Shown piece by piece: positions 23,095-28,564 of a DNA stretch of 64,000 bases. Every line of letters starts with the position of its first letter. Position 1 is the stretch's first letter. The notes under the pieces were generated by a model. That model was not told the DNA's origin. It saw only the letters and a list, made by a program, of their open reading frames with translations, and made no database searches. The DNA lies in the NCBI GenBank assembly GCA_030433215.1, contig JAUIMC010000004.1, positions 1-64,000 on the forward strand, read 5' to 3'. A program made the position numbers and the translations under genes. Source of the stretch: Alphaproteobacteria bacterium (GTDB taxonomy: Bacteria; Pseudomonadota; Alphaproteobacteria; Caulobacterales; Parvularculaceae).

Positions 23095-23166
23095 CCGCTC
23101 ATCCCGGCGAAAGCCGGGATCTCAGGAAATACGGAAGGAGATTCCGGCCTACGCCGGAATGAGCGG
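23095..23166. repeat. REPIN-like double-hairpin repeat, copy A
   Basis: A 72-nt element with inverted ends CCGCTCAT and ATGAGCGG. Inside are two hairpins: CCCGGC-GAAA-GCCGGG on the left and ATTCCGGC-CTAC-GCCGGAAT on the right. It lies in the gap between ispA and the 23200-23859 gene. Its organisation matches copies B and C; the CCGG core differs from their CCCGC core, so it may be a sub-family. Confidence 0.8.
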
Positions 23167-25243: not shown

Positions 25244-26422
25244 ATGTCAGTATCGCTTCACCAGCAAGTCCGCATCGGCGCCTATGTGGCGAAGCAAACC
25301 CTCCTGGGCCGCAAGAAATATCCGCTGGTCCTGTTTCTGGAGCCGCTTTTCCGCTGCAACCTTGCCTGCCCCGGCTGCGGCAAGATCGATTATCCGGCGC
25401 CGATCCTCAACAAGCGCCTTTCCGTTCAGGAATGCCTGGATGCTGTCGACGAGTGCGGCGCGCCGGTGGTGGCGATCCCCGGCGGCGAACCCCTGATCCA
25501 CAAGGATATGCCTGAAATCGTCGAGGGCATCGTGGCGCGCAAGAAATTCGTGTCGCTTTGCACCAATGCGCTCCTGCTCGAAAAGAAACTCGACCAGTTC
25601 AAGCCCTCGCCGTTCCTGTTCTTCTCCGTTCACCTCGACGGCCTCGAAGAAGAACACGACCGCGCGGTCGACCAGAAAGGCACCTTCAAGATCGCCGTTC
25701 AAGCCATCAAGGCGGCGCAGGACAAGGGCTTCCAGGTCAATGTCAACGCGACGATCTTCGACAATATGACGGCGGAGCAGGTGGCGGACTATCTCGACTT
25801 CGCCACCGATCTCGGCTGCAACATCTCGATCTCGCCGGGCTACGCCTATGAGCGCGCCGAAGACAAGGAGCACTTCCTGTCGCGCGAGAAGACCAAGAAC
25901 CTCTTCCGCGACATCTTCCGCATCGGCAAGGAGCGCGGGCGCGAATGGAACCTGTCGCACTCTTCGCTCTTCCTCAACTTTCTCGCGGGCAACGAAGAAT
26001 ATCACTGCACGCCCTGGGGCTCGCCGACGCGCAATGTCTTCGGCTGGCAAAAGCCCTGCTACCTTCTCGGCGAAGGCTATGTCTCCACGTTTAAAGAGCT
26101 GATGGAGACGACCGAGTGGGAGAAATACGGCACCGGCAAATACGAGAAATGCTCGAACTGCATGGCCCATTGCGGCTATGAGCCGACGGCGGCCATGGAC
26201 GCGGTGAAGAACCCGTTCAAGATGTTCAAGATCCCGAACATGTTCAAGATCAAGACCGAAGGCCCCATGGCGCCGGAGATCGATTTGTCGAATGCGCGCC
26301 CCGCCGAGGACATGCATGACGCGCTGGTCGAAAACGAGATGGAAAAGATCAAGCGCGAAAAAGAAGAAGCCAAAGCGCGCAAGACGACCCTGATCGACAA
26401 GAACAAAGAATACGCTGCCTAA
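25244..26422 (+). CDS. hpnH: Adenosyl-hopane synthase, radical SAM protein HpnH
   Basis: A 392-residue radical SAM enzyme that joins the 5'-deoxyadenosyl group to hopene, the first step of C35 hopanoid side-chain synthesis. The cluster motif CxxxCxxC is C38, C42 and C45 in FRCNLACPGCGK; GGEP in AIPGGEPLIH binds SAM. A C-terminal cysteine group, CSNCMAHCGYEPTA, is family-typical. The charged coiled tail after residue 350 (KIKREKEEAKARK) is likely cytosolic. A CGGAG Shine-Dalgarno precedes the ATG; an in-frame extension to 25073 is a shadow of ispH. Its stop overlaps the convergent hpnG stop by 4 nt. Confidence 0.92.
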   Translation: MSVSLHQQVRIGAYVAKQTLLGRKKYPLVLFLEPLFRCNLACPGCGKIDYPAPILNKRLSVQECLDAVDECGAPVVAIPGGEPLIHKDMPEIVEGIVARKKFVSLCTNALLLEKKLDQFKPSPFLFFSVHLDGLEEEHDRAVDQKGTFKIAVQAIKAAQDKGFQVNVNATIFDNMTAEQVADYLDFATDLGCNISISPGYAYERAEDKEHFLSREKTKNLFRDIFRIGKERGREWNLSHSSLFLNFLAGNEEYHCTPWGSPTRNVFGWQKPCYLLGEGYVSTFKELMETTEWEKYGTGKYEKCSNCMAHCGYEPTAAMDAVKNPFKMFKIPNMFKIKTEGPMAPEIDLSNARPAEDMHDALVENEMEKIKREKEEAKARKTTLIDKNKEYAA

Positions 26423-27207
26423 AGATCGAGGCTCAGGAAAAGCCGCTCGAAAAGCGGACCGAGGCTGCGGCGCAGCGTCTTCGCCGCGGCTGACGAGTCG
26501 CCGCCGAGCTTCATCAACTCCGGAAACTGCTTCGGATCGCGCAGGGCGGCGCCCAGCGTCGCCATGACCCGCGTCGAGCCGTCTTGTGCAACAGCGTTCA
26601 AGGCCGCCGCCGGCAGCGCCCGGCCAGCGGGATCGGCGATGGCGCGGATGGCGAGAAAAGGCGCGCCGGCGCGCGCGGCCGCCCGCGCCGCGCCATGGCT
26701 TTCCATGTCGACAGCGGCGGCGCCGTGATTTTGAAACAGCGCGGACTTTTTCATGGTGCTGTCGACGATTTCATCGGCGCCGAACAGCGCCGCCACTCTT
26801 GCTTCCACTTTCCCCCGCTCATCCCCGCGCAAGCGGGGATCCATTTTTGCAGACTTTCCTGGATTCCCGCTTTCGCGGGAAAGAGCGGGGTTGAGGCAAC
26901 CGAGAAGGTAACGGTCGCCCGAATAGACCGAGCCGTCATCGGCGATGATGGTCTCGCCAATGACAAGGTCGCCGGGCTTCAGCGCCGGATCGAGCCCGCC
27001 GGAAAAGCCGATGGAAAAGATCGCGCTCGCGCCTTCGTTGCAGAAGTCACGTGCAATCTCTTCGGCGCGCGCCGCGCTTGCGCCGGAAACGCCGATACGG
27101 ATTTTCGATGCGTCGACTGACGCCGAAACCGCTTGCGCTTCGGATTTCAGGCCGCAGACAACGCCGATGAATTTGCTTGCAGTCAATGAACTCTCAGCTC
27201 CGTTCAT
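26419..27207 (-). CDS. hpnG: Hopanoid-associated phosphorylase HpnG, carrying an in-frame repeat insertion
   Basis: A 262-residue purine-nucleoside-phosphorylase-fold enzyme that removes adenine from adenosylhopane to give a ribosyl (phosphoribosyl) hopane. Seen: IFSIGFSGGLDPALKPGDLVIG (phosphate/ribose site), AAVDMESHGAARAA with the catalytic-site glutamate, and FLAIRAIADPAGRALP. Residues about 107-131 (SRESGNPG, then DPRLRGDE) are translated from a REPIN-like repeat at 26815-26888. They split the sequence between YSGDRYLLG and VEARVAALFGADE, probably a surface loop, and leave the frame open. The ATG at 27207 lies inside another copy of the repeat. It ends the hpnC-D-E-G operon. It could still be functional, as the active-site blocks are intact. 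Confidence 0.85.
   Translation of the reverse strand: MNGAESSLTASKFIGVVCGLKSEAQAVSASVDASKIRIGVSGASAARAEEIARDFCNEGASAIFSIGFSGGLDPALKPGDLVIGETIIADDGSVYSGDRYLLGCLNPALSRESGNPGKSAKMDPRLRGDERGKVEARVAALFGADEIVDSTMKKSALFQNHGAAAVDMESHGAARAAARAGAPFLAIRAIADPAGRALPAAALNAVAQDGSTRVMATLGAALRDPKQFPELMKLGGDSSAAAKTLRRSLGPLFERLFLSLDL
26815..26888. repeat. REPIN-like double-hairpin repeat, copy B, inside hpnG
   Basis: A 74-nt element from CCGCTCAT to AAGAGCGG. Left hairpin CCCCGC-GCAA-GCGGGG, right hairpin TTCCCGC-TTTC-GCGGGAA, separated by about 30 nt. It is in frame within hpnG, where it encodes about 25 residues. It shares its architecture, and most of its hairpin bases, with copy C. Confidence 0.85.
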
Positions 27208-27272
27208 CCCCGCGCAAGCGGGTATCCAGAATACCTATTTTCATGGATTCCCGCTTTCGCGGGAATGACCGG
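27200..27272. repeat. REPIN-like double-hairpin repeat, copy C, between hpnE and hpnG
   Basis: A 73-nt element running from CCGTTCATCCCCGC to GCGGGAATGACCGG, filling nearly all of the hpnE-hpnG gap. The right hairpin is ATTCCCGC-TTTC-GCGGGAAT. The ATG used for hpnG is the complement of its CAT at 27205-27207. Confidence 0.85.
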
Positions 27273-27286
27273 GGGCGGTACAATTA

Positions 27287-28564
27287 TCACGACAAATTAA
27301 GCGACTTTATCGCCAGTTCCGCCGCCCTGTCCCCCGACCGGATCGAGCCTTCAATCGTCGCGGGCACGCCCGTATCCGTATGGTCGCCGGCGAGGAAGAG
27401 ATTGCGCCACTTTGTTTCCGGCTTAAGGCGTTTTCGCGCACCTAAAGGCGACTGGTCGGGCGTCGCGCGTTTTTCGCGGATGACGCGCACGCGCTCATAC
27501 TCCGCATCGCCTAAACCAAGCGCGATTTGCGTTTCACGCCAGATCTGCGAAACCACATCGTCATTGGGCTGATCGTCGGCGCCGATGGCGTTCGAGGCCG
27601 AGGTCGTCAGGCTGATCACGTCGTCGCGCACAAAGGCCCACTGGCCGAGGCTCGACACCATGCCGATAAACGGGCCGTCGCCCAGCGCCTCTTTCGGCAC
27701 CGGACGGCCCATCCGGTAGTGCACGTTCAAAATGCTGGCGTCGTCATCGGGCGGATCGATGTCGGGAAGCAGGTCTTTCAGCCGCGTTGGCGGAATGGCG
27801 AAGATGACCTTGTCGCCGTCTTCGAGCGTCACGGTCTCGTCGGCGAAATTGAGCGTGGTCGCCTCGCCGCCTTCCATCCAGACGCCGCGCACCCGCGCGC
27901 CGAGGCGCACGGTCCCGCCATGAGCCTCGATAAACTTCACCGCCGGGTCGATGAAGGCGTGGCCGAGGCCCGTCTTCGCCGTCAGCGGCACGGACGCCTG
28001 TCCACCCAGAAGAAACGTCTCGCGAATGACCCGCCAGAGCAGTTTCGCCTGTCCCTTTTCCGGCGTCGTATTGAGCACGGCGAGGGTCAGAGGCTCCCAG
28101 AAGCGGGGGTAGAGAACGCTATTTTTATCAACGACTTCCGCGACAGTCTTTTCGTCATCGGCGAAGGCGATGCCCGACGCCCGCACATAATCCATGACTT
28201 TCGTGTCCGGCACGCGCCATTTCTTGTCGAAGACCCAGAAGGGAATGAACCCTTCATTGATCCGCACCGTCCAGCGCTGGCCGGTCTTCACATCCGCGAA
28301 GGGATACATAGCGAAGGGCGGCCCCGTGAGCGGGTCTTCCGCGCCGATGCGGTCCAGATAGGAAAGCGCCGACTTGTTGCCCGACATGATCAGGTGATTG
28401 CCGTTGTCGATCTCGCGCTCAAGATGGCGGTCGTAAAAAGTGCGGCAGCGCCCGCCCGCCTGGCCCGCGCCTTCATAGACCGTCACCGGCACGTCATGTT
28501 CGATGAGACGCACGGCGGCGGCGAGACCGGAAAGCCCCGCGCCGATAATATGAACGCGGGTCAT
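27287..28564 (-). CDS. hpnE: Hydroxysqualene dehydroxylase HpnE
   Basis: A 425-residue FAD amine-oxidase-like enzyme that reduces hydroxysqualene to squalene, third step of the HpnCDE route. The N-terminal FAD motif is HIIGAGLSGLAAAVRLIEHD, followed by VYEGAGQAGGRCRTF; the C-terminal FAD-closing block is LFLAGDHTDTGVPATIEGSIRSGDRAA. DNGNHLIMSGNKSALSYL is typical of this family. Its ATG overlaps the hpnD stop (ATGA), so the genes are translationally coupled. Confidence 0.9.
   Translation of the reverse strand: MTRVHIIGAGLSGLAAAVRLIEHDVPVTVYEGAGQAGGRCRTFYDRHLEREIDNGNHLIMSGNKSALSYLDRIGAEDPLTGPPFAMYPFADVKTGQRWTVRINEGFIPFWVFDKKWRVPDTKVMDYVRASGIAFADDEKTVAEVVDKNSVLYPRFWEPLTLAVLNTTPEKGQAKLLWRVIRETFLLGGQASVPLTAKTGLGHAFIDPAVKFIEAHGGTVRLGARVRGVWMEGGEATTLNFADETVTLEDGDKVIFAIPPTRLKDLLPDIDPPDDDASILNVHYRMGRPVPKEALGDGPFIGMVSSLGQWAFVRDDVISLTTSASNAIGADDQPNDDVVSQIWRETQIALGLGDAEYERVRVIREKRATPDQSPLGARKRLKPETKWRNLFLAGDHTDTGVPATIEGSIRSGDRAAELAIKSLNLS

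Follow-up and report, generated by a model that had tools for sequence, protein, structure and literature searches.

A palindromic repeat lies in frame within hpnG

How does a dispersed palindromic repeat come to lie inside the coding sequence of a conserved enzyme, and what keeps it there? The question is raised by a 64,000-nt stretch of DNA (hereafter the window) from a Marinicaulis genome of the Parvularculaceae, G000 (3.75 Mb in 37 contigs, 98% complete), for which a preliminary description had proposed that a REPIN-like repeat is inserted in hpnG and translated. The locus is composed as follows.

26419–27207, minus strand: hpnG (hopanoid-associated phosphorylase/nucleosidase), insert-carrying; a 262-aa ORF whose best hit is TIGR03468
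26815–26888, minus strand: 74-nt dimer of CGTC-like REP elements, corresponding to hpnG codons 107–131
26860–26884, minus strand: half-element towards the hpnG 5′ end; loop GAAA, tail CCA, first stem pair mismatched
26844–26859, minus strand: 16-nt spacer separating both half-elements
26819–26843, plus strand: half-element towards the hpnG 3′ end; loop GCAA
27200–27272, no strand assigned: second dimer immediately upstream of hpnG, enclosing the predicted ATG (27205–27207)
25247–26422, plus strand: hpnH, convergent neighbour, with a 4-nt overlap with the hpnG stop
27287–28564, minus strand: hpnE, neighbour upstream of hpnG

The identification of HpnG rests on the TIGR03468 best hit, on an MTA/SAH nucleosidase-like character seen both by profile and by fold, and on the flanking genes, which profile matches of the window's ORFs identify as hpnH and hpnE. 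The TIGR03468 match scores 176.6 bits in two stretches split by the insert and does not reach the cut-off of 187.1. Since the match is split and falls below the NCBI cut-off, hpnG-type genes bearing the insert may get misnamed by annotation pipelines.

The double hairpin had been described as adding about 25 residues between conserved blocks without breaking the frame, and this account stood. The frame is open across all 262 aa, the insert occupies codons 107–131 (26815–26889, 75 nt) that insert-free relatives lack, and an alignment of 30 HpnG sequences places it at a single site with the conserved core intact around it. Up to the next conserved block, HpnG of G000 counts 124 residues versus 102 or 103 in 15/15 insert-free rows of the genus; the net gain of 21–22 codons is smaller than the element itself, which suggests that the element took the place of a few codons originally there. 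The two inverted hairpins of the dimer fold together into a single long hairpin of −46.5 kcal/mol. On sequence grounds, we infer that the repeat is translated and that its residues enter the HpnG protein.

Among named relatives, Marinicaulis flavus SY-3-19 is the nearest at this locus (HpnG identity 88–89%), and its insert differs from that of G000 at 2 positions in 75 nt. Because the M. flavus record, which is not labelled as a MAG, has the insert too, assembly error is an unlikely source of it; loss of the insert on resequencing had been named as an outcome that would speak against it, and this second assembly has it. We found no counterpart of the upstream dimer 27200–27272 at the same place in M. 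flavus. As the predicted ATG lies in a repeat not found there in M. flavus, the true start of hpnG is uncertain.

The insert belongs to a dispersed CGTC-like repeat family

Pattern matches to the half-element number seven in the window, whereas shuffled sequence gave 0.80 on average and at most 5; the dimer inside hpnG and the one next to it account for five of the seven. Counting the element across the genome, as the preliminary description had advised, gave 37 half-elements with the hpnG-type stem (reversed-pattern control 0) and a further 36 matches, 25 of them exact, to a second stem type (control 0). Inverted dimers predominate among the G000 loci that were fetched, with spacers of very different length. 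A dimer of the second stem type (CCGGC) lies at 23095–23166 of the window, about 1 kb upstream of an ispH-like ORF, and has the tail TCTC, not TCCA. A general search for repeats counted at least 60 families in the window; the hpnG element is not among the 20 that were listed.

Which class of repeat is this? A REPIN is an inverted dimer of hairpins with moderate copy number that is tied to a RAYT transposase. The original label 'REPIN-like' is apt in that the element is a dispersed inverted dimer, but it implies a RAYT, and a search for that family (PF01797) gave 0 matches in the 98% complete G000 genome while detecting it in 5/14 control genomes. Its hairpin features fit the CGTC-1 REP: an 8-bp stem starting with A-T, a 4-nt loop and a CCA tail, the exception being the hpnG half with the first-pair mismatch. 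The tag does not fit, as G000 dimers carry GCTC, GTTC or GATC before the stem, and we therefore name the element CGTC-like and do not count it as a CGTC-1 REP member. The negative RAYT search in G000 agrees with the description of CGTC elements by Di Nocera et al. (2013; PMC3733652), in the text of which they seem to be without a dedicated transposase.

We surveyed in-gene repeats of G000 at 20 places with the first stem type, listing ORFs of at least 90 aa that overlap the repeat. Ten of these ORFs matched nothing in Pfam. Four have real domains (MurB, MnmE, OMP decarboxylase and GIY-YIG), and in each the repeat lies ahead of the first domain, where it probably precedes the true start. The survey covered part of the listed ORFs at first-stem-type loci, and the hpnG copy is accordingly not claimed as the sole in-gene copy. 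Searched genus-wide, the insert peptide returned 30 loci; three motif-matching ORFs outside HpnG were scanned, among which a DctP protein and a GIY-YIG protein have the repeat ahead of the domain. In a rhodanese-domain ORF (L137, G005:C130), the repeat encodes the C-terminus, in the same frame as in hpnG.

The insert is predicted to form a disordered loop

We modelled HpnG of G000 with AlphaFold2, using an alignment of 30 relatives. Mean pLDDT was 92.0, compared with 95.7 for an insert-free relative; two 10-residue blocks within the insert averaged 49 and 58, and the other blocks 84–98. A helix that spans residues 88–100 in the insert-free model is shortened to 88–93 in G000, which suggests that a flexible hydrophilic loop stands in the insert-bearing protein where half of that helix would be. 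The expectation that the protein accommodates the segment as an added loop is in keeping with these models; the insert would probably add a disordered, harmless loop.

Inserts recur at a single nucleotide of hpnG

Alignment of HpnG across relatives corrected the initial picture in one respect. The insert is absent from 15/28 genomes of the genus, but it is not private to G000, as 10/28 carry a CGTC-like insert at the same nucleotide (G000, G001, G003, G004, G009, G010, G014, G016, G023 and G027; that of G003 is degenerate and that of G001 adjoins a contig end). The remaining genomes are G025, with another repeat; G008, with other extra residues; and G005, whose sole match is to the repeat itself. 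The HpnG of G008 (L071/L010) has 119 residues up to the next block, versus 102–103, and its extra residues are not repeat-like by eye. In the inserts of G004 (L006) and G014 (L073), the second hairpin encloses another, and the GCGCGCCTTCGCGCGC core of the latter is similar in the two species.

The start nucleotide is identical in 10/10 CGTC-like inserts of the genus, 88 nt past a conserved anchor, with the same orientation and phase. The insert of G025 starts at 90 nt (+2) and is an unrelated dispersed repeat, whose family has matches in 11/28 genomes. L085, a member of the Parvularculaceae that falls outside the genus on the tree, has a CGTC-like insert at 103 nt (+15) in the same phase. No in-frame stop occurs in the nine full-length insert-bearing genes, including that of G000, or in the part of the G001 gene held by its contig. 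Shared residues in relatives devoid of the repeat elsewhere had been put forward as evidence that would undo the proposal; the insert-bearing relatives that were searched carry repeat DNA elsewhere too.

In a class-wide sample, HpnG was matched in 116/385 genomes, and no other insert of such size occurs among the 99 listed matches that cover the greater part of the profile without a break: their excess over the profile span is 9 codons at most, compared with 26 in G000. Three split HpnG matches of one family, f85 (L195, L196 and L197), were set aside, as there the region is natively longer at about the same place and holds no repeat. Among 72,556 plasmid records, 12 have HpnG, all below 60% identity.

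Might the segment be no insertion at all but a loop that varies natively, or the gene be a pseudogene, or the assembly be wrong? The loop does vary, as in G008, and one distant family is natively longer in this region. Against this, the length up to the next block is constant within one residue across the 15 insert-free rows of the genus, with no length scars; copies of the repeat lie elsewhere in the genome; the frames are free of stops; and a separate assembly holds the same insert. We consider this explanation very improbable.

Each insert resembles the repeats of its own genome

Resident stems are CCGGC in 35/36 pattern matches of G004 and 19/19 of G027, and the hpnG inserts of both are also CCGGC; the residents of G010 are CCCGC in 19/19, and its insert likewise. 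Where a genome has mixed stems, the hpnG insert still has identical or near-identical resident copies. The distance of 13 hpnG half-elements to their nearest residents sums to 7. A permutation test over eight genomes, which ignores genome relatedness and leaves out G003 and G014, found 44 of 40,320 reassignments as good (mean 20.75); with the left-out rows admitted the count was 82 of 40,320 (mean 20.25), and with the second stem type of G000 added too it was 104 of 40,320 (mean 18.88). Some reassignments beat the observed value, with a minimum of 5 versus 7. That each species' copy matches the repeats of its own genome points to homogenisation or replacement of the insert in place.

Insert-bearing lineages are separated by insert-free relatives

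We built a tree from the neighbouring genes ispH, hpnH, hpnE, hpnD and hpnC (40 rows, 1752 columns; hpnG excluded), on which the presence or absence of the REP takes a minimum of 5 changes, and 7 if any insert is counted. Six rows, G000 and M. flavus among them, form a clade (support 100/100) in which every member bears the insert. G010 falls in a clade (100/100) that also holds four relatives without insert, with support of 95/88 and 92/63 at its inner forks, G016, G001 and G014 share a clade with the insert-free L067 and L068 (100/100), and L085 lies far from the other insert-bearing rows. Alleles at the same nucleotide in lineages split by insert-free relatives suggest that the allele passed between species by recombination, that fresh insertions hit the point anew, or a combination of the two.

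It is quite possible that a single insertion event gave rise to most of the insert-bearing alleles, spreading among Marinicaulis as homologous recombination moved a short stretch of hpnG, with the stems later gene-converted. Such a history would fit the identity of nucleotide, orientation and phase in 10/10 inserts, as well as the spacer, which is 16 nt in 7/10 inserts and in no other listed G000 dimer. It would also fit the mosaic around the insert of G010, where identity to the sisters is 42–71% over the 39 codons upstream, compared with 69–93% among the sisters, and G010 resembles them over most of the remaining hpnG, as if the tract before the insert had been imported. The 117 nt adjoining the insert do not reject a tree constrained to unite the insert-bearing rows (p 0.30; a test with little power), but codons 1–50 do, with lnL 73 lower (24 rows in each test). 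Within the clade that comprises L067, L068, L086, L065, L073 and L087, in which the placement of L086 is weak, an extra upstream codon is present in the insert-free L067, L068 and L086 and absent in the insert-bearing L065, L073 and L087, again as spread would have it. Other observations run counter to a single spread: the free tree of the 117 nt takes 5 changes and that of codons 1–50 only 4; near the insert, L065 and L087 (from G016 and G001) still group near the insert-free L067/L068; the spacers of G010 and G001 match other inserts at just 2–6 of 12 positions; and stem types follow the host genome.

The latter observation sits better with repeated independent insertions, in which a preferred target, or the only tolerated point, was hit by resident repeats in several lineages, a history that we hold to be possible. 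The unrelated family within 2 nt in G025, the CGTC-like insert at +15 nt outside the genus in L085, the number of changes on the neighbour-gene tree and the scarless, near-constant length of insert-free rows all speak in its favour. However, the exact nucleotide in 10/10 inserts would be unlikely within a 13-codon stretch barring target specificity, with illustrative odds of 6e-5 for three further hits at a random codon and orientation, and no target motif was seen in the 2 nt flanking the listed G000 dimers. Spread of one insertion and repeated insertion are alternatives inside the explanation that we favour below.

The insert seems to be kept as DNA rather than as protein

Outside the insert, hpnG of G000 and M. 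flavus differs at 112 of 678 nt. The insert codons comprise 1 silent change, 23 identical and 1 replaced, and the rest of the gene 67, 132 and 27, such that silent change among same-residue codons is 1/24 in the insert versus 67/199 in the rest (p 0.0018). The pair G027/G004 gave a like result over the first 19 insert codons (0 silent, 16 identical, 3 replaced; rest 72, 108, 30), with silent change in 0/16 versus 72/180 (p 0.0007). Pooled over the two pairs, the ratio of replacement to silent change is 4:1 in the insert and 57:139 in the rest (p 0.03). So low a rate at silent positions suggests that something acts on the DNA itself, be it constraint or correction, and as far as codon comparisons can tell, it thus seems to be the DNA of the insert, not its protein sequence, that is kept.

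In the G000/M. flavus pair, the 15 codons on either side of the insert have 5 silent changes each, and a longer tract transferred recently is therefore not the reason why the insert is so conserved. Six orthologous intergenic elements, drawn from 20 fetched places per genome and including two without a recognisable second half in one genome, are 73–89% identical between the two genomes, versus 96% for the hpnG dimer; by this measure of sequence identity, the copy in hpnG is more conserved than copies that merely ride along elsewhere. Its spacer, too, is nearly unchanged. Because the spacers of other copies differ, homogenisation from those copies cannot explain the kept spacer, and constraint on the hpnG copy itself is possible. 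The scarcity of silent change within the palindrome may reflect pairing constraints.

Better conservation than intergenic orthologues, together with the in-frame presence of the insert in 6/6 species of the G000 clade, might also be expected of a functional loop selected as protein, with a role in regulation, oligomerisation or partner binding. We find this improbable, since the sequences and lengths at the site differ and even include another repeat family, replacements are not depleted relative to silent changes, pLDDT is low and 15/28 genomes go without any insert.

A probable passenger at a permissive point

Taken together, our preferred explanation, which we hold to be probable as a whole, is that a passenger dimer of CGTC-like elements occupies a permissive point of hpnG and is shared by exchange and/or re-insertion. 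A dimer of the palindrome would once have inserted into hpnG, and it would have persisted since it kept the reading frame intact at a point that tolerates it, where it would replace the C-terminal half of one helix with a hydrophilic loop, predicted to be disordered once translated. The insert would be mainly a passenger kept as DNA and not a protein part selected for its sequence, as suggested by silent sites that hardly change and replacements that are not depleted relative to silent changes. Resident copies would then homogenise or replace the hpnG insert in place.

A bolder version, which we regard as speculative and rather unlikely, is that this one nucleotide is a standing landing site in the Parvularculaceae, at which more than one palindrome family is repeatedly installed in frame, exchanged between species with a short flank and refreshed to the host's repeat type. 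If so, a housekeeping-type enzyme would carry a species-specific loop dictated by selfish DNA.

Comparison with known repeat systems

Within the open-licence literature, our searches brought up no report of an HpnG with such an insert, and to that extent the claim of novelty in the preliminary description holds. It does not extend to REPs inside coding regions, which are already in print (PMC3733652; PMC2229807). Few examples of such structures in coding sequence were said to have been reported in a study of nematomorph mitochondria (PMC6649704). What is new is the gene and the recurrence at an exact nucleotide; in-frame palindromes as such were already known. The present case adds an exact point common to several species, a second repeat family at about the same point (+2 nt) and copies that each match their own genome, and it indicates that REP-class palindromes enter ORFs in alphaproteobacteria outside Rickettsia. 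The many insert-free hpnG sisters make the fates of an insert (gain, exchange, refresh and loss) countable, and the reuse of one nucleotide raises the question of a target preference of CGTC-like repeats.

The REPIN/RAYT system resembles the G000 family in its inverted hairpin dimers and moderate copy number and differs from it in the transposase, as no PF01797 was found in G000. The CGTC-1 REP, for which no dedicated transposase is known, has in common with it the stem, loop and tail, the occurrence of dimers and some copies inside ORFs, where dimers and grouped repeats encode 20–30 residues (PMC3733652). Its tag is CGTC, or also TGTC or CCTC, unlike the GCTC, GTTC or GATC of G000; moreover, the main text of that paper has 0 occurrences of 'hopanoid' or 'Parvularcula' and does not describe recurrence at one nucleotide. 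The same paper equates the CGTC-1 REP with Rickettsia RPE-6 and Neisseria dRS3.

The palindromic elements of Rickettsia (Ogata et al., 2000, as cited in PMC2229807) likewise lie in frame within conserved enzymes, and an insert-bearing guanylate kinase was translated and active (PMC2229807). By sequence, the hpnG insert behaves as they do, being a repeat within a conserved gene whose frame stays open. It is nonetheless not one of them, as they measure 105–146 bp and are Rickettsia-specific, whereas the hpnG insert measures 74 nt, belongs to Marinicaulis of the Parvularculaceae and occupies a site common to many species. The nearest parallel for recurrence is recB of Xanthomonas campestris and X. 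oryzae, in which different REPs lie at about the same site (PMC3733652); there two species share an approximate position, whereas in hpnG ten species share the identical nucleotide, with two further insertions nearby.
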